Part shown: positions 240-60,674 of the stretch, piece by piece
Numbering within the stretch: position 1 is the stretch's first letter
Layout: each line of letters starts with the position of its first letter
Origin: Synechococcales cyanobacterium S06
GTDB lineage: Bacteria > Cyanobacteriota > Cyanobacteriia > Cyanobacteriales > JAABRE01
Reading direction: 5' to 3'
DNA: 64,000 bases
NCBI GenBank assembly: GCA_011391125.1
Contig: JAABRE010000016.1
Coordinates: forward strand, 1-64,000
Made by a program: the position numbers and the translations under genes
The notes under the pieces: model-generated
Databases searched by the model: none
What the model was told of the DNA's origin: nothing
Seen by the model: the letters and a program-made list of their open reading frames with translations, nothing else

Positions 240-241
240 TT
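164..241. repeat. CCC-rich TA-flanked MITE-like repeat, left-truncated copy
   Basis: This is a C-run core (CACCCCCTAACCCCCTCATCC) followed by a GGGAGAGGGGG strand and the terminal AAAATGCTATAT. The same layout recurs at 43984-44086, 48546-48651 and, inverted, 53693-53899. The left terminus (TATAGNATTTTCTGATTAA in other copies) is not recognisable here. The right end abuts the arsC stop codon. Confidence 0.7.
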
Positions 242-635
242 AACAATAATTATTAATTAGATTCGTGACTTTCTCCTTAATTTCATCCCGAACTTTTCGG
301 AATATTTCTAAGGATTTACCGTCAGGGTCTTCTAATTGCCAATCTTCAAATATTTCCCTTAATACCCATTCTTGGGGTAAGTTTACACCACAACCACAAA
401 GCGATATTACAATGTCATAATCTTCTGCTTTAAAGTTACTTAAAGGATCAGAAGTTTGCTCATTAATATTAACACCAACTTCTGACATTATTTCAATTGC
501 TTGAGGATGAACTCTTGACGCTTCTAAACCAGAACTTGTCACTTCTATTTTACCTTTTCCTAATTCTTTTGTCCAACCTTCTGCCATTTGTGAACGACAG
601 GAATTTCTCTTACATACAAACATTACTTTTTTCAT
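240..635 (-). CDS. arsC: arsenate reductase ArsC (LMW-PTPase fold)
   Basis: Reduces arsenate to arsenite in the cytoplasm so that the arsenite can be exported. The 131-residue protein starts with the phosphatase-type P-loop CX5R (Cys8 to Arg14, in VCKRNSCRS) and has a further CxC pair at Cys80 and Cys82. Cys8/80/82 is the triad described for Synechocystis ArsC, which has the thioredoxin-class fold but draws electrons from the glutathione/glutaredoxin system; that reductant is inferred by homology. It is the last gene of the arsR-pstS-acr3-arsH-arsC row and begins 39 bases after arsH, so it is probably cotranscribed with acr3 and arsH. The start ATG at 635 follows a purine-rich GAGAG. The 3' end touches a mobile repeat. 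Confidence 0.95.
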   Translation of the reverse strand: MKKVMFVCKRNSCRSQMAEGWTKELGKGKIEVTSSGLEASRVHPQAIEIMSEVGVNINEQTSDPLSNFKAEDYDIVISLCGCGVNLPQEWVLREIFEDWQLEDPDGKSLEIFRKVRDEIKEKVTNLINNYC

Positions 636-674
636 TTTTTCTCTCTAAACTAATAGTAATTAAACCCAAAATCA

Positions 675-1295
675 TTAGGTATTTTGAGTCATTTTTTCCT
701 TTCTTTCACTGTGGCGATCGGTTAAATAATCCACTTGATCCCGCAATAACATGGTAAATTTGTAAAGTTCTTCCATTACGTCAATTACCCGATCGCGATA
801 AGGTGAATCTTTCATCGTGCCATCCTCATTGAACTCTTGGTAAGCTTTGGCCACGGAAGATTGATTAGGAATGGTAAACATTCGCATCCATCTTCCTAAA
901 ATTCGCATCGTGTTAACCGCATTGAAGGATTGTGAACCACCGCTAACCTGCATCACTGCAAGGGTTTTGCCCTGTGTTGGCCGAATTGAACCAATCTCTA
1001 AGGGTATCCAATCAATTTGATTTTTCAAAATACCCGTAACATTGCCGTGCATTTCAGGGGAAGACCAGACTTGACCTTCTGACCAGTGGCAAAGTTCCCG
1101 CAATTCCTGCACTTTTGGGTGCGATTCGTCAACTTGACCCCGTAACGGTAATTCCATGGGATCAAAAAACTTGATTTCGGCACCCATGTCCGTAATAATT
1201 CTTGCGGCTTCTTCCGCCAATAAACGACTATAGGAACGTTCCCTCAACGAACCATAAAGGAATAAAATACGGGGAGGATGAGCGAATTTTGTCAT
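675..1295 (-). CDS. arsH: ArsH, NADPH-dependent FMN reductase / organoarsenical oxidase
   Basis: A flavodoxin-like FMN protein of 206 residues, normal for ArsH. The phosphate-binding motif of the family, GSLRERSYS, lies near residues 15-23. The segment around [19 protein letters not shown] is the conserved flavin/NADPH loop of ArsH and related quinone reductases. Family members oxidise trivalent organoarsenicals and produce or quench H2O2. In cyanobacteria the gene sits in arsBHC operons. Here it begins 33 bases after acr3 and precedes arsC, the same order. ArsR control is inferred from the operator in front of acr3. The C-terminus carries a charged tail (HSERKEK) after the core fold. Confidence 0.93.
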
Positions 1296-1328
1296 TAATA
1301 AAGAGCCCCTTTTTCTGATTAGTAAAAA

Positions 1329-2477
1329 CTATTGCTGATAATTAACACAACGTGGGTCAAATAGGGTTGCTTTTTCTGGTTCTCGTTTAAACCAAAATGC
1401 CGTTTTTTTACAAAATTCCACTAACATTAACATCACTGGAACTTCAATTAATACCCCGACTACTGTCGCTAAAGCTGCTCCCGAATTTAAGCCAAATAAC
1501 ATCACCGCAGTGGCGATCGCAACTTCAAAATGATTACTAGCACCAATTAAGGCAGCTGGTGCGGCATCTTCGTAGGTTAAATCTAGTTTCCAAGCGATTA
1601 CATAACTAATTAAAAAGATAAAATTAGTCTGGATAAATAGAGGAACAGCTATTAACAAAATGTGCAAAGGATTGTTAACAATTAACTCACCTTTAAAGGC
1701 AAAAAGTAGGACTAAAGTTATTAATAAAGCGGCGATGGAAATGGGAGAAAGATAATGTAAAAAATTCTCATCAAACCATTTTCTCCCCTTATTTTTCATA
1801 ATCCATTGACGGCTGTAAACTCCTGCAAATAAAGGAATACCGACATAAATTAGCACAGAAAAAACGATAGTTTGCCAAGGAATAGTTAAGTTACTTGCTG
1901 AGAGTAACCACTTCCCTAAAGGAGCATATAAAAATAACATTGCTAAAGAATTTACTGCCACCATAATTAAAGTATGACCTTGGTTACTATAGGACAAATA
2001 ACCCCACATTAAAACCATGGCTGTACAAGGGGCAATTCCTAATAAAATAGCACCAGCAATATAGGAGTTTGCTAATGTTGTTTCTTGGCCATTAATTAGC
2101 TCTGTTGCTGTTAATAAAGGCTTAAATAAACCGCCTAAAAATACTTGGGCAAATACCACCATGGTAAAAGGTTTTATTAACCAGTTTACTACTAAAGTTA
2201 AGAGTACAGGTTTAGGAGTTTGAGCCGCTTTTTTTACTTGGGTAAAGTCGATTTTTACCATGATGGGATACATCATAAAAAATAGACAAATAGCAATGGG
2301 AATTGACACATTATAAAGACTCATATTGTCTAAAGTTTTTGCCAAGTCGGGAAATAATTTTCCTAAACCAATTCCCCCTAAAATACATAAGAAAACCCAA
2401 ACAGTTAGGTATTTTTCGAAAAAACTCAGATTTCCGCCAGCTTTTACTGCTTTGGCATTACTTGGTGAACTTTCCAT
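1329..2477 (-). CDS. acr3: arsenite efflux permease Acr3
   Basis: An inner-membrane arsenite exporter of the ACR3/BASS family with 382 residues and about ten hydrophobic segments. The conserved permease cysteine lies in [13 protein letters not shown] (Cys151), and the conserved glutamate region is seen as SNHFEVAIA. Exports the As(III) produced by ArsC. It is the first gene of the acr3-arsH-arsC unit. An ArsR operator (ATCAA-N6-TTGAT) lies about 50 bases upstream of the ATG, so arsenite- or antimonite-responsive derepression is likely. In Synechocystis the equivalent gene is called arsB although the protein is Acr3-type. Confidence 0.95.
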
Positions 2478-2525
2478 AAATTATAGTAGCATCAAAATTA
2501 TTTGATATGTCACCTAAAATTATAT

Positions 2526-2541
2526 ATCAAATAATCTTGAT
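2526..2541. promoter_or_regulatory. ArsR operator upstream of acr3
   Basis: A perfect ATCAA-ATAATC-TTGAT match to the ATCAA-N6-TTGAT site reported for Synechocystis ArsR. It lies 49 bases before the acr3 start. A wider imperfect palindrome (ATTATTTGATAT / ATATCAAATAAT) overlaps it. Confidence 0.8.
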
Positions 2542-2575
2542 TGATACAATTTGATCTTAAATAGCAATCGCCCGA

Positions 2576-3583
2576 CTAATAGGTAGCCTGTTTGCGCAAC
2601 AATTCCCCCATGGTGAGGTTAAATGCGGATTTCCCGTCAAAAACTGTGCCTACTTTTCCCCTTTGAAAGTGAATTGTTGCTAATTTGTAACCTTCCTCTG
2701 ATAGGGGAATATAGCCAACTTGACGAACTACTTCCGGAGCTTCTTTTAAATAAAATTCCACAAAGTTTTTGAGAGCGGGGTTTTCTTGGGCAGCTTTAGC
2801 GTTAATATAAATGAACAATGGGCGAGATAGAGGCTGATATTGACCATTATCCACGCTTTCTGGTGAAGGTATGATTCCACCTTGACCATTATCTATTGCT
2901 ATTGCTTTTAATTTGTTTTCATTTTTCTCATAGTAACTGTAGCCGAAATAACCCAAAGCGTTGGGGTCTTGACTAACACCATTAACTAAGGCCAGATCAT
3001 CTTCACTATAAACGTAGTCTTGACGACTTGCGTCAACCTTGCCGTTGACTACTTCGGTAAAATAGTCAAAAGTTCCCGAATCTTTGCCCGGACCAAATAA
3101 ATTTAAGGGTTTATCCGGCCAAGTTTCCCGAATTTGTTTCCATTTTGTCACCTTTTTCTCCCCTTCGGGTTGCCACATTTTCTTTAATTCAGCCATGGTG
3201 ACACTGTCAACCCAGCTATTTTCTTTGTTGACCACTACGGTTAAAGCATCGAAGGCGATCGGAAGTTCAATATAGGCAACTTGATTGTTTTTGCATTCAA
3301 TCATTTCGGCTGCACTAATAGGTCGAGATGCGTTGCTAAGATCTGATTCTCCCTTACAAAAGCTTTTAAAACCGCCACTTGTACCAGAAAAATCAACGGT
3401 AATGGGAGATTTGAGATTCGGATTTGTATTAAATTTTTCTGATATAGCCGAGGTAATGGGATAAACCGTACTTGATCCATCAATTTTAATTGATTTAGGC
3501 TGGGTTGTTTCAGCTTGACTACAACTGCTTAAGGCGACGGTAACAGCAACAATAGCTAATTTCGACAATAAATTTTGACTCAT
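2576..3583 (-). CDS. PstS/SphX-type phosphate-binding lipoprotein in the ars cluster
   Basis: A periplasmic ABC-type oxyanion-binding protein of 335 residues. The N-terminus is a lipoprotein signal with lipobox LSSC (Cys21), so it should be tethered to the membrane. Ligand-loop motifs of PstS are visible: GSSTVYP, SGTSGGFKSFCKGE, NASRPI and PGKDSGTFDYF. No pstCAB genes are present, so it must work with a permease encoded elsewhere or act as a binding protein only. It lies between arsR and acr3 on the same strand and has its own perfect ArsR operator upstream. That suggests an arsenate-stress role, for example selective phosphate uptake when arsenate competes. The ligand is not provable from sequence. 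Confidence 0.85.
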   Translation of the reverse strand: MSQNLLSKLAIVAVTVALSSCSQAETTQPKSIKIDGSSTVYPITSAISEKFNTNPNLKSPITVDFSGTSGGFKSFCKGESDLSNASRPISAAEMIECKNNQVAYIELPIAFDALTVVVNKENSWVDSVTMAELKKMWQPEGEKKVTKWKQIRETWPDKPLNLFGPGKDSGTFDYFTEVVNGKVDASRQDYVYSEDDLALVNGVSQDPNALGYFGYSYYEKNENKLKAIAIDNGQGGIIPSPESVDNGQYQPLSRPLFIYINAKAAQENPALKNFVEFYLKEAPEVVRQVGYIPLSEEGYKLATIHFQRGKVGTVFDGKSAFNLTMGELLRKQATY

Positions 3584-3614
3584 ATTTGCGTTAAATTTAG
3601 CATGATAATCTTAT

Positions 3615-3630
3615 ATCAATTAATATTGAT
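3615..3630. promoter_or_regulatory. ArsR operator upstream of the pstS-like gene
   Basis: A perfect ATCAA-TTAATA-TTGAT, the same consensus as the site before acr3. It starts 32 bases upstream of the pstS-like ATG, within the spacer after arsR. Confidence 0.75.
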
Positions 3631-3678
3631 GATTGACTTTAATTAAGGTTAAAGAAAAGGTTAACTAATGACAAAATT

Positions 3679-3999
3679 TTAGCAATTACGGCCAGGTAAA
3701 ATAGGACTAAAACGGCGATATTCCGCTAAATACTGCTCTAAAACCACAAATTGAGCTAAATTTAAGCGATAATAAATCCAACGGCCTTCTTGACGCGGAA
3801 TGATTAAATTAGCATCTTTAAGATTTTTGAGGTGAAAAGATAATTTAGACTGGGAAACATCTAAAATTTCGCACAATTCACAGACACATAATTCTTTTTC
3901 TCGTAGTAATTCTATCACTTGTAAGCGCAAGGGTTCGCTCATGGCATGAAAACCTGAGATAATTAAATTAGTATCAGTATTTAGGGGAGTAATTGCCAT
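3679..3999 (-). CDS. arsR: ArsR/SmtB-family arsenite-responsive repressor
   Basis: A winged-helix repressor of 106 residues. The metalloid-binding motif ELCVCEL is intact (Cys38, Cys40), with another cysteine at 43, followed by the recognition helix DVSQSKLSFHLKNL and the wing region GRWIYYRL. It binds operator DNA without metalloid and releases it on As(III)/Sb(III) binding. It is the first gene of the ars row, with the pstS-like gene and acr3 downstream, each preceded by an ArsR operator. No ATCAA-N6-TTGAT site is visible directly upstream of arsR itself, so autoregulation is not shown. The divergent neighbour is alkB. Confidence 0.93.
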   Translation of the reverse strand: MAITPLNTDTNLIISGFHAMSEPLRLQVIELLREKELCVCELCEILDVSQSKLSFHLKNLKDANLIIPRQEGRWIYYRLNLAQFVVLEQYLAEYRRFSPILPGRNC

Positions 4000-44086: not shown

Positions 44087-44223
44087 TCTAGTTTTCTACG
44101 ATTAGAGATGAATAATTATTATTTATTAATTTTAAAAGATTTTTTGGAAAAAACTGCATAATCCCAAACTCTCGACAGGATATGTAATTGAATCACTACC
44201 CTATCAAGGGGGGAAACAAAAAA

Positions 44224-45606
44224 ATGGAATCTCGTAAAAAAACTTTGGATAAATTTTCGACTTTTTTGGTACTGATTAATTCAGAATCATATACGACTAG
44301 GTGGCAAACTGACCTTAAACTCAAAAAAAACATGGAACGAATTTTATTGCAACATGAAATGGAAGCGGAATTTTTGGCGCGTCGATTTCTGTCGCTAATA
44401 AAACGAGAGAAAGAATTGGTTTGTAGTTTACATCTAACAGCCTATTTGCAGGAGATTAGTTATAAAACTTCTCTACAAGTTTTTAACAAATTTGGCGGTT
44501 TGACTAAGGGTTTAACCTGGCAAGATTATTTTGGTTTTGCGACGGAAAGAATAGCACAACCAGAATTATTACTTTGTAATTACGATGAAAATAAAGGAGC
44601 ACAAATTATTACTTATGTGAGGGCCATATTGCAGGGAAAAATTGCCAATGACGCTTACGCAAATTTGGGTTGGAAACTTTGTTCAGATTGGGGACTTTTG
44701 CGAAAAATGACAAAAAAAACTCGTAAAAAAGCTTTACAAAAAATAAGTGGTTTAGCCAATAATCAGTTAGAACAATATTTGATTGTCTGGCAATGTTTTG
44801 AGCTTATATATACGCCAATTGAGCGCAAAAAAAGCAGAGAATTACCTGCTCCCACTCCTGAGCAATTTCAGAAGATGACTGAGCAATATAATCTAATGAT
44901 GGCGACGAAAATTAACACAGAAACTTTTCGAGAAATGTTAGAATTTTGTATAGAAGCAGCGCGAAAATATCAGAATCCTCAGACGGTTGCTTATCCCGAA
45001 AATTTTGATTTTATTGATGAAAATCAAAATCCAATTATAAACTTAGAAAAGGAAGAAAAACAAGAAAAATTAACTAAAATTCAAGCTCTTTTAGCCGAAG
45101 CTATTAATACTTTAAATAAGGAAGAGCAAATTATGTTGGCAATGTGGAAAGGGTTAAAAATTACTCAAAAAGATATCGCTACACTTTTGACGGAAAATTA
45201 TGCTGGTTTTACGGAGCAACAATATGAGATTTCTCGTCAGATTGAGAGATGTCGAAAAAGGATTTTAAAATATTTACTTAAGAACAACTTAAATAATAAC
45301 TCGAAGTTAACTCAGACAAAACTGCAAGAATTAAAAGCACCTTTTGAGGAATCTTTGACTAATTATTTTCAAAATTTGGTGAATAATTTTTTAGAACAAT
45401 CATACCATGATTTTTACAAACTTCAAGCAGTAAAAAAGCTTGAAACTGTTAATACACAAAACTTAAATAGTTACTTAATCTCAAAGTTCAAGTCATTTTT
45501 GATGACTAAATGGAATTTAAAATCTGATAATTACCATTTTTTAGACTTCGCCATCACTAATTTAATTGAAACTTGGATCGAAGACAATAATTACTTAAAT
45601 AAATAA
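44224..45606 (+). CDS. divergent sigma-70-like factor, paired with DUF1822
   Basis: 460 residues from ATG 44224, preceded by AAGGGGGGAAAC; an in-frame TTG at 44188 is less likely. It does not look like group 1-3 sigma factors. The recognisable part is a region-4-type HTH at about 310-365 (EEQIMLAMWKGLKITQKDIA, then YEISRQIERCRKRILKYL). The earlier helices (about 95-200, including TWQDYFGFATERIAQPELLL) are lysine-rich and could be a divergent region 2/3. The C-terminal 90 residues are extra. The next gene, 26 bases on, is DUF1822. This pair recurs in cyanobacteria, often near CHAT or CHASE2 genes. The target promoters are unknown. Confidence 0.7.
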   Translation: MESRKKTLDKFSTFLVLINSESYTTRWQTDLKLKKNMERILLQHEMEAEFLARRFLSLIKREKELVCSLHLTAYLQEISYKTSLQVFNKFGGLTKGLTWQDYFGFATERIAQPELLLCNYDENKGAQIITYVRAILQGKIANDAYANLGWKLCSDWGLLRKMTKKTRKKALQKISGLANNQLEQYLIVWQCFELIYTPIERKKSRELPAPTPEQFQKMTEQYNLMMATKINTETFREMLEFCIEAARKYQNPQTVAYPENFDFIDENQNPIINLEKEEKQEKLTKIQALLAEAINTLNKEEQIMLAMWKGLKITQKDIATLLTENYAGFTEQQYEISRQIERCRKRILKYLLKNNLNNNSKLTQTKLQELKAPFEESLTNYFQNLVNNFLEQSYHDFYKLQAVKKLETVNTQNLNSYLISKFKSFLMTKWNLKSDNYHFLDFAITNLIETWIEDNNYLNK

Positions 45607-45632
45607 AAATTAAATAAGGGAGATAAAAAACG

Positions 45633-47006
45633 ATGACTGTACAAAATTTAACGGATTTTAACCAAGAACAAGTTGGGTTACATATTGAGCATAATATCCA
45701 AGAAGAATGCTGGCAAATTGCCAAAAATAATGCTCCGAATATTAGCAGATGGGCCACTTATTTAAACCTAATGACCCTCAAGACTATTTTACCTTGGTTC
45801 ACTGAAATATCAGAAGAACAAATCAGCCTAAAAAGTGAAACTGAGTTATTAGAAATGTGGGATTTTGTTAATGGTTTTGCCCTTAATATTGGCAAAATTA
45901 GATTAATTATCATTCCTTCTGAATATGAAGATTTAGGGGAAATTTGTGTGCCCCAAGAATGGGTAGATATTCCCTCTTTAGCGGGTGATTATTATTTAGG
46001 AGTGCAGATAAATCCTGATGATGGCTGGTTAAGAATCTGGGGTTATTGTAATTATGAACAGTTAAAAAATGAGGCGGAATATGATGCTTTTACTCGCAGT
46101 TATAGTTTAGAAGAAGATCAATTAGAAACTGATATCATGTTTATGTTAGTAACAGCAGAATATCAAGAAAAACAGCATCCATTTATTCCGGAATTAGGAA
46201 TGTTATCTCAGCAAAAAGCCAGAGAATTGTTAACCCAATTAAAACAACTCAAAGATTATGCTCCCCGATTAATTATTCCCTTTCAAGAATGGTGCTTAAT
46301 TTTTATTAATGACCAATGGCGCAAAGAATTATTTGAAGCCAGAAAACCAATTAATTTAACCGCTTGGATGCATTATAATTTTCAACAAGCAATCTTAACC
46401 GGATGGCAAACCGTAGAAAGTTTAGACTTAAGCTTAGGACTTCACACAAATGGTACAAATGGTTTTGCCATGCGCTCAGGTTCTATGAATATTGCCACAA
46501 TTTATCATTGTGAAAATCAAAATCAAAGAAAAATCGCCATTGAAGCAGTCGGCAAAATGAATCCCCATACGGGAGAAGCTCAAAGTGCGATCGCCGCCTT
46601 AACCCATGTCTTAAGGAGTTGCGAAGACGATGACACCCGTTGGCTTGCTGAACTTTCCCTCAGAAATTTAGATCCTGATAATCTTGCTTTAGGAATTTGG
46701 CGGGGAAAAATCATCGACTTAGGAATCGACTTAGCCAAACACAAGGTAGCCCTCGTCATTGGCACATTGCCCAAAAATAAAACAAAAACCAGTATTTTTG
46801 TGAGATTATATTCAAGAGAGGAAGAAAGATTACCAGAAAATCTAATTTTAAGCATTATGGATGAAACCGGCAGGGAATTTCAGAAACTTGTCAGTCGCAG
46901 TGTTGATAATATCTTGCAATACAAATTCTGGGGCAATCCGGGAGAGCAATTCAGTCTCAACTTAAGTTTAGGCAATGCTCAAATAACCGAAACCTTTGTG
47001 ATTTAA
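45633..47006 (+). CDS. DUF1822 family protein
   Basis: A 457-residue soluble protein without signal or membrane span. The DUF1822 region covers about residues 20-340, with typical WATYLNLMTLKTILPWF, PQEWVDIPSLAGDYYLGVQI and DDGWLRIWGY. The C-terminal 100 residues (about 355-457, beginning KVALVIGTLPKNKTKTSI) form a beta-rich extension. It is transcribed with the sigma-like gene 26 bases upstream; GGGAG precedes the ATG. The function is unknown. The fixed pairing suggests a regulator (anti-sigma-like or sensor) of the neighbouring factor, which is inference only. Confidence 0.8.
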   Translation: MTVQNLTDFNQEQVGLHIEHNIQEECWQIAKNNAPNISRWATYLNLMTLKTILPWFTEISEEQISLKSETELLEMWDFVNGFALNIGKIRLIIIPSEYEDLGEICVPQEWVDIPSLAGDYYLGVQINPDDGWLRIWGYCNYEQLKNEAEYDAFTRSYSLEEDQLETDIMFMLVTAEYQEKQHPFIPELGMLSQQKARELLTQLKQLKDYAPRLIIPFQEWCLIFINDQWRKELFEARKPINLTAWMHYNFQQAILTGWQTVESLDLSLGLHTNGTNGFAMRSGSMNIATIYHCENQNQRKIAIEAVGKMNPHTGEAQSAIAALTHVLRSCEDDDTRWLAELSLRNLDPDNLALGIWRGKIIDLGIDLAKHKVALVIGTLPKNKTKTSIFVRLYSREEERLPENLILSIMDETGREFQKLVSRSVDNILQYKFWGNPGEQFSLNLSLGNAQITETFVI

Positions 47007-58973: not shown

Positions 58974-60353
58974 TTACAAGTCATTGATGTAGCACATCGG
59001 TTGATTTCCTCCGGGGCGATGGTATGCTGATTTCTTCCCACAAACGCCCCCCGCTTTGTCAAAATCATAAGGGCACTCACACAATCCTTGGTAGGGTTTT
59101 CGTGTCGGTTTAGGCTGACTAATATTTTTCCCCAAAACAAGGGATATTAAAGCAACAAGAATTAAGACACTAATTATAATGTTAAATGGTGAGTTTTTTT
59201 CGGGCGGTTTTTTTGGTGGTTCATTTTGGAAATTTAATTGGGTAGTGGTGGAATTTTGCCGAATTAAATCTTGCCAACTTGGGGGTAATACGCCTAAATT
59301 TTGATAAATTACGGGTAGTAAAGTTACTCCTGGTGCTTCATCTTCTAAATGGGATAATTCTTGTAGTTTAGCTTTGGCTTCTTTGACGGAATTATATAAA
59401 CTTTGTCCACGAGAATATAAGCTTAAAAAGTGTTTTAAAAATTCCTGTGCTACTAAGTCTGGCACTGGTTCGCGCATGACGATAATATTCGGTATATTTA
59501 ATTCGGCTAAATTGTAGGCTAATCCTAAGCCATCACAGGAGTTAAATATGGCCAGTTTTAAACCGTTGGAGATCGCCTTTGTTAAAGTATTTCTTAATTG
59601 GTTAATATTTAGGGTTTCCTTGGGATTAATAAATATTACCCCTGTTTTTCCATTATTTTCAGTATAACTATGTCCAGCAAAAAAAAGAATTTGCCAATCT
59701 TTCTCCCATAATATCTCAAATTCTTTTCTTTTTGGCTCTTCTAAAAAAGCGATATTTACTTGAGGAATTTTAGTTAAATATTGACGATCTTTTGTCACAT
59801 CAATATTGGTACTATCACCTAAAATTGCTAAGATTTTAACGGGTAAATTCGGCACTTTTTTTTTCGGGTTGATGGGGGTAGAAAAATTTAATCTACTTAA
59901 GGCAATTTCGGCTAAGGGATAACTTTCAAAAAAAGTCCATAAAGACCAAGGTAATTGCCATAATTTCCAGTCATCCGTTTGAATAATAAGCTGGATTTCA
60001 TCGGTTTTATTTAAGTTTTGAAATAAATCGAAAAGAATTTTTTGAAAGTCTTTGTCAGCCGAAGTCAACCACTGATTAATTTCTTGTTTTAATTCATCAG
60101 CAAATTCTCGACATTGGGTAACTGAAATATTGGTAATTTGAGATTGAGGAGCTCCTAAACGTAAAGTTGGGGCTAAATTACGATAACTGGACTGCCAACG
60201 AGTGAAAAGTTGGTATAATTTCGGAGCAGGAGCAAGTTTTCCCTCAGTTTCTGAGGAAAATTGTTTGGCTTGTGCTTGAGCTATTCTGAGACATACAGGG
60301 AATCCTGTCTCAAAATTCCCTTCTCCGATTCTCAGGATGACTAATTTAACCAA
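58974..60353 (-). CDS. CHAT-domain (caspase-like) membrane protein with Cys-rich tail
   Basis: 459 residues. An N-terminal region (about 1-165) is typical of cyanobacterial CHAT proteins (FADELKQEINQWL, LPWSLWTFFESYPLAEIALS). The protease-like CHAT core follows, with the His-Cys dyad at FFAGHSY (His228) and IFNSCDGLGLA (Cys273). A membrane span comes after (about 388-405, NIIISVLILVALISLVLG) and then a short tail with four cysteines (425, 427, 438, 454) in CECPYD, CGKKSAYHRPGG and MCY. That tail matches a small module seen at the end of secreted nucleases and other exported proteins. The tail should lie outside and the protease inside. It is a single gene downstream of repeat-filled sequence. 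Confidence 0.85.
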   Translation of the reverse strand: MVKLVILRIGEGNFETGFPVCLRIAQAQAKQFSSETEGKLAPAPKLYQLFTRWQSSYRNLAPTLRLGAPQSQITNISVTQCREFADELKQEINQWLTSADKDFQKILFDLFQNLNKTDEIQLIIQTDDWKLWQLPWSLWTFFESYPLAEIALSRLNFSTPINPKKKVPNLPVKILAILGDSTNIDVTKDRQYLTKIPQVNIAFLEEPKRKEFEILWEKDWQILFFAGHSYTENNGKTGVIFINPKETLNINQLRNTLTKAISNGLKLAIFNSCDGLGLAYNLAELNIPNIIVMREPVPDLVAQEFLKHFLSLYSRGQSLYNSVKEAKAKLQELSHLEDEAPGVTLLPVIYQNLGVLPPSWQDLIRQNSTTTQLNFQNEPPKKPPEKNSPFNIIISVLILVALISLVLGKNISQPKPTRKPYQGLCECPYDFDKAGGVCGKKSAYHRPGGNQPMCYINDL

Positions 60354-60517: not shown

Positions 60518-60674
60518 TTGGCGTTGCATAGTTGTGAGATGATTTGATATTTATTCTCAATGTAGGGGTAGGGCTTGTCCCTACCCGATCAGGGTTTCGG
60601 GGGCAACCACGTAGGGGTAGGTCTTGTGCCTACCCTGCCCCTACAATTTCATCTTAGAGTTATGCAACGCCCGT
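60518..60674. mobile_element. GGCGTTGCATA-ended element with nested TAGGGGTAGG repeats
   Basis: The outer inverted ends are TTTTTTGGCGTTGCATA ... AGATGAT and ATCTTAGAGTTATGCAACGCC. Between them are two GTAGGGGTAGG / CCTACCC hairpins (60562-60588 and 60611-60645). No ORF. The GGCGTTGCATA ends resemble those of ISAs1-type insertion sequences, so it may be a non-autonomous relative. The whole spacer 60354-61112 contains no gene. Confidence 0.65.

Follow-up and report, generated by a model that had tools for sequence, protein, structure and literature searches.

To our knowledge, there are very few systems in which the activation of a bacterial caspase-like protease and its targets are understood. 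Kaur et al. 2021 (PMC8195603) described proteins in which a constant EACC2 module and a caspase are followed by highly variable C-termini, some of them extracellular (CHASE2, for example), and read these C-termini as sensory. The EACC2-caspase systems came to light when bacteria were searched for immunity and apoptosis-like systems, and those neighborhoods that have no TRADD-N gene mostly contain an ECF sigma factor and DUF1822. The proposal in that study was that a stimulus induces autopeptidase activation, with a transcriptional output. Additionally, in the Craspase system the protease Csx29 (TPR-CHAT) has as its target Csx30, which it cuts and which inhibits an ECF-like sigma factor (PMC10028731). 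HetF, a CHAT protein with a single span, works at the division site (PMC8406250), and DdvS, the sigma partner of DdvA, controls a CBASS/CRISPR defense island (PMC12288465).

The window analysed here (the whole 64,000-nucleotide stretch of DNA) contains a gene for a CHAT protein with one membrane span and a four-cysteine C-terminal tail, called CHAT-tail below, and a separate pair of genes that are its probable partners. The features discussed are the following.

58974-60353, minus strand: CHAT-tail gene, 459 aa, TTG start with AAAGGA before it; Pfam CHAT match, 10 orthologues
59994-60353, minus strand: conserved N-terminal module, residues 1-120, beta3-alpha3 by AF2 secondary structure; common to the CHASE2- and PBP-bearing paralogues
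59298-59993, minus strand: caspase-like CHAT domain, residues 121-352; Pfam match, Foldseek matches to Csx29, separase and SAVED-CHAT
59670-59672, minus strand: codon of His228, predicted catalytic dyad; invariant in alignments A1 and A3
59535-59537, minus strand: codon of Cys273, predicted catalytic dyad; invariant in alignments A1 and A3
59130-59189, minus strand: single membrane helix, residues 389-408; hydropathy and AF2 helix
58986-59102, minus strand: four-cysteine tail (C425, C427, C438, C454), residues 418-456; conserved in orthologues and on exported proteins, without a Pfam model
44188-45606, plus strand: sigma-70/ECF-like protein, start more likely the ATG at 44224, probable partner of CHAT-tail; weak TIGR02937 and Foldseek matches, orthologues come first in the CHAT-tail operon of genomes G184 and G159
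45633-47006, plus strand: DUF1822 protein (PF08852, E = 7.8e-81), probable partner of CHAT-tail; sister to the DUF1822 clade that contains the copies operonic with CHAT-tail

Residues 121-336 of the protein match the Pfam CHAT profile (PF12770) with an E value of 8.6e-13 and 48.8 bits against a cut-off of 24. An earlier note on this DNA had described an intact His228/Cys273 dyad, and both residues are found at those positions, in the contexts AGHS and NSCDG, and are invariant in alignments of the 11 CHAT-tail orthologues and of 37 homologues with other C-termini. The profile and the dyad place the protein in the CHAT protease family, and proteolysis is the predicted activity. The AF2 model (mean pLDDT 81, pTM 0.77) consists of the beta3-alpha3 module over residues 1-120 followed by a caspase-like domain, and its best Foldseek matches in the PDB were Csx29 of the type III-E CRISPR caspase complex (E = 3e-10), separase and SAVED-CHAT. 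DdvA, a transmembrane anti-sigma factor from Myxococcus (PDB 8rot), also matched the model, with an E value of 6.5e-6. Searches of PDB sequences with the protein or a profile gave nothing useful.

The single span proposed in the same note is likewise supported. Only one stretch of the protein is strongly hydrophobic (19 residues at about 390-408, mean Kyte-Doolittle 2.80, next best 1.09), and it coincides with the AF2 helix at 389-408. Beyond it is the four-cysteine tail, CECPYDFDKAGGVCGKKSAYHRPGGNQPMCY, with the pattern C425-x-C427-P-Y-D ... C438 ... C454. The tail has a pLDDT below 50 and no confident fold in the AF2 model, and no Pfam model matches it convincingly. The Excalibur calcium-binding domain was considered and rejected: none of 14 tails matched it in Pfam, and the second Asp of its pattern is not conserved. 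Upstream of the gene, the 760-bp gap contains GGGTAGGGACAAGCCCTACCCCTAC-type repeats at 60540-60660. Elsewhere in the window, positions 240-3999 hold a cluster that resembles an arsenic-resistance operon (ArsC, ArsH-like, Acr3-like, a PstS-like phosphate-binding protein and ArsR), named by eye from the sequence.

With the single CHAT-tail protein as query, a genome-wide scan turned up no more than a distant Microcystis relative, and the searches were therefore made at family level. When the 38-residue tail was used as a query against 293 genomes of the same order, 30 genomes gave matches, and in 11 of these, the window's own included, the tail ends a CHAT protein (an open frame of 454-503 aa with a membrane helix between). 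The search for other CHAT proteins with this tail, which had been put forward as a check, thus yielded 10 further genomes. All but one of the 11 belong to a single cyanobacterial family, f13 (15 genomes in the sample), and identity to the window protein is 46-51% among the orthologues. A tree of 50 CHAT modules groups the 11 that bear the tail in one clade (support 100/99), most simply explained by a single origin of the fusion. Mean pairwise identity among the orthologues is 66% in the tail, 23-26% in the linkers and 22% in the membrane helix. All four tail cysteines are kept, barring one copy truncated at a contig end, and all pairs that allowed an estimate of Ka/Ks in the tail gave values below 1. 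As judged from these comparisons, the architecture is not a chance fusion, because it recurs in 10 further genomes and because the tail is far better conserved than its surroundings.

The tail had also been associated with exported nucleases, and this association holds. Its other hosts are NUC-type endonucleases that begin with a lipoprotein or signal peptide, and SNase nucleases and small proteins (about 95-120 aa) that carry signal peptides. When the N-termini of the 23 non-CHAT hosts were screened by simple hydropathy, 22 showed a signal, lipobox or membrane segment and the remaining one was a 56-residue frame, so that almost all proteins other than CHAT proteins that carry the CxCPYD...C...C tail are exported. 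The four-cysteine tail also ends another membrane protein (locus L126, genome G379), which is about 374 aa long and has two N-terminal hydrophobic stretches. Two paralogues in the window's genome have the same N-terminal module, CHAT domain and helix, followed by CHASE2 (E = 3e-60) in one and a periplasmic-binding/ANF-receptor domain in the other. Both kinds of domain are normally extracytoplasmic. The positive-inside rule favors neither orientation of the helix, and we infer the orientation from these associations: since the other tail hosts are exported and this position in the paralogues is taken by extracytoplasmic domains, the tail very probably lies outside the cell. As far as sequence shows, neither observation named in the earlier note as a refutation is borne out: the dyad does not vary among the orthologues, and export is the rule for the tail's other hosts.

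The sigma-like and DUF1822 genes of the window (44188-47006) are located 12 kb from the CHAT-tail gene and on the opposite strand. In genomes G184 and G159, however, a sigma-like gene (product of about 480 aa), a DUF1822 gene and, third, the CHAT-tail gene follow one another on the same strand, separated by 32-41 bp and 148-188 bp. The window's sigma-like and DUF1822 proteins are 31% and 35% identical to their G159 counterparts. In a tree of DUF1822 proteins the window protein is sister (97/94) to a clade with support of 100/100, which holds both operonic copies and also one copy from each other CHAT-tail genome. The tree leaves out the copy from genome G204 (contig C28, 15977-17335), a DUF1822 gene of clade-X type in a CHAT-tail genome that carries two in-frame stops. 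The N-terminal resemblance of the sigma-like protein had raised a different assignment, to a CHAT-less clade next to aroA, but the DUF1822 tree put the window protein with the CHAT-tail clade. Because its orthologues head the CHAT-tail operon in two relatives, and because of its placement in the tree, the separated pair is probably the cognate partner of CHAT-tail. A link to the sigma and DUF1822 proteins, which the earlier note had touched on in naming candidate substrates, is thereby substantiated. It should be said that the pair is not beside the CHAT gene in most CHAT-tail genomes, so the pairing rests on two operons and on phylogeny.

Beyond the tail-bearing proteins, the same association is seen across the class. 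Among the 150 matches listed from 80 genomes of the order, at least 76 CHAT genes of this class have a DUF1822 gene directly upstream on the same strand (median gap 54 bp), and one other pair has the two genes close together in another arrangement. Each of the two further CHAT genes of the class in the window's genome directly follows a DUF1822 gene. Additionally, three near-complete genomes of family f13 have neither CHAT-tail nor its DUF1822. Between genomes, pairwise distances for CHAT-tail track those for its DUF1822 with a rho of 0.96, but little weight is given to this value because shared species history alone would yield it. On the genomic evidence, CHAT-tail is highly likely to belong to a three-gene system of sigma-like factor, DUF1822 and CHAT protein. 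Sigma/DUF1822 pairs can also exist without a CHAT gene, as a second pair (clade Y) has no CHAT gene adjoining it at nine loci in family f13; in several genomes of the family this pair is followed by an apparent aroA (EPSP synthase). The window's genome has a fourth DUF1822 match (contig C146, 34192-34497), which is partial (profile positions 269-370, in a 214-aa frame) and is possibly a pseudogene, with the N-terminal part apparently in another frame.

The gene at 44188-45606 probably encodes a sigma factor, to judge from distant profile and fold matches. No Pfam family matches the protein. The NCBIfam model TIGR02937 gives it 21.8 bits (E = 1.1e-4), below the cut-off of 42.9, and it matches 11 of 14 scanned members of this sigma-like family weakly, the best at E = 1.1e-7. 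Foldseek with a moderate AF2 model (pLDDT 68) returned sigma-32, sigma-28 and sigma-70 among the top hits, with a best E value of 0.038. The neighborhood gene is an ECF sigma factor in the main-text description by Kaur et al. (PMC8195603).

The reading favored here, with a probability of roughly 55%, is that CHAT-tail acts as the protease and receptor of a relay of sigma-like factor, DUF1822 and CHAT protein that leads from a signal outside the cell to sigma release. The N-terminal module and the CHAT protease would be in the cytoplasm, one helix would cross the membrane, and the four-cysteine tail would be outside, where it may bind or sense something in the envelope. Binding, or an altered disulfide state of the tail, would rearrange the CHAT domain, and the activated protease would cut a cytoplasmic partner, most likely a DUF1822 protein that holds the sigma-like factor. 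The sigma-like factor, once set free, would switch genes on. Surface damage or phage contact, the triggers suggested in the earlier note, find no support in these data. The sequences themselves show the architecture, its conservation, the tie of the tail to export, the linkage of the three genes and the common descent of the separated and operonic pairs. Catalysis, substrate and the direction of signaling are what we infer for this relay: the outside-signal half follows from topology by association, and the sigma-release half from the linkage of the genes and the precedent of Craspase. That DUF1822 is the substrate or the sigma inhibitor is put at a little short of even odds. More tentative, and on balance doubtful, is the full version in which the tail is a periplasmic redox or ligand sensor that controls the cytoplasmic caspase-like protease, which cuts DUF1822 and frees a dedicated sigma factor. 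If true, this would be a membrane-receptor counterpart of Craspase signaling, in which a single protease module takes different outside sensors (tail, CHASE2, binding protein) interchangeably. Since the protein is compact and single-span, the outside module has 39 residues and the partner pair was identified phylogenetically, the relay is directly testable with three genes.

The main rival to this relay is that the tail only localizes or stabilizes the protein, placing it in the envelope as it would hold secreted nucleases, while the trigger is cytoplasmic and acts through the N-terminal module or DUF1822. The same tail is found on NUC and SNase nucleases, which have no known signaling role, and on small secreted proteins; it is short and has no confident AF2 fold in CHAT-tail, and HetF is a precedent for a single-span CHAT protein that works at a particular place, the division site (PMC8406250). 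However, other proteins of this CHAT class have CHASE2 or periplasmic-binding domains at this C-terminal position, domains that act as sensors elsewhere, and the main text of PMC8195603 treats the C-termini of EACC2 proteins as sensory. A tail that is an envelope-binding or stabilizing module and no sensor is therefore considered rather unlikely. Even the side of the membrane could be otherwise: the tail could be cytoplasmic, with its four cysteines binding a metal such as zinc, if the hydrophobic stretch is something other than a simple N-in/C-out span. The CxC...C...C pattern could bind metal and the charge rule leans neither way, but nearly all other tail hosts are exported and the paralogues have extracytoplasmic domains at the same place, which makes a metal-binding cytoplasmic tail very improbable.

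A further explanation concerns the output and not the tail. CHAT-tail could be a cell-death or anti-phage effector whose cleavage of host proteins kills the cell or arrests it, the sigma-like gene being a side branch. The origin of the EACC2-caspase systems in a search for immunity and apoptosis-like systems (PMC8195603, main text) is consistent with this, as are the fold matches to SAVED-CHAT and Craspase. However, no PADLOC family matched, no defense genes were recognized beside the CHAT-tail gene in the window, and the gene is linked to sigma-like and DUF1822 genes, not to toxins. An effector role is thus improbable, and the sigma-release relay remains the preferred reading.

Compared with other described CHAT proteins, CHAT-tail resembles HetF (CHAT, one membrane span, TPR; PMC8406250) as a cyanobacterial single-span CHAT protein with a weak NCBIfam match at the dyad region. 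The layout differs, however, and the HetF equivalog NF045509 gives the window protein 23.1 bits against a cut-off of 1200. DdvA reportedly has a periplasmic CHAT-like domain, whose active site is incomplete, together with a cytoplasmic anti-sigma domain of its own, an arrangement that is the reverse of the one proposed for CHAT-tail. The CHAT-CHASE2 paralogue in the window's genome (L016) is 44-46% identical over residues 1-367 and directly follows a DUF1822 gene, but has a CHASE2 sensor behind the helix where the window protein has the four-cysteine tail. A short distance from the CHAT-CHASE2 gene on that contig (C99), a TPR-type CHAT gene (L006) faces it on the opposite strand.

Craspase (Csx29, Csx30, CASP-sigma; PMC10028731) shares with the present system a CHAT protease, a sigma-like factor and a third protein, and Csx29 is the closest solved fold. 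The likeness suggests, by analogy, the order protease, then sigma inhibitor, then transcription. DUF1822 is set beside Csx30 here by its proposed role in the system and not by relatedness. Also, RNA acting through Cas7-11 triggers Craspase, which is soluble, whereas the window protein is membrane-bound and has no CRISPR parts.

The closest likeness is to the EACC2-caspase systems as set out in the main text of PMC8195603: a putatively equivalent N-terminal alpha+beta module, a caspase-like domain, a variable C-terminus behind a helix, linkage to sigma and DUF1822 genes, and occurrence in cyanobacteria. Residues 1-120 are taken as the EACC2 constant domain, a likeness drawn from the published description and not from an alignment. 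The variable, sometimes extracytoplasmic C-terminus is seen within one genome as CHASE2, a periplasmic-binding/ANF domain and the four-cysteine tail, and the sigma/DUF1822 linkage is seen in the operons of G184 and G159 and in the at least 76 DUF1822-adjoining homologues. The claim of a new kind of CHAT receptor therefore finds no support as worded, because that main text describes the design of variable C-termini on CHAT/caspase proteins near ECF sigma and DUF1822 genes, and because two paralogues in the same genome are of such a type; what is new in it is the tail as a C-terminal module. No earlier mention of this tail was found in the main text of PMC8195603 or in the literature searched. 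Two differences from the EACC2-caspase systems of that account stand out: the C-terminal module of the window protein is the four-cysteine tail of exported nucleases, and its gene is separated from its sigma/DUF1822 pair. The general design is thus published, and the new elements are this tail, a small conserved module without a Pfam model that is common to secreted nucleases and a signaling protease, and the evidence for a separated cognate sigma-like/DUF1822 pair.
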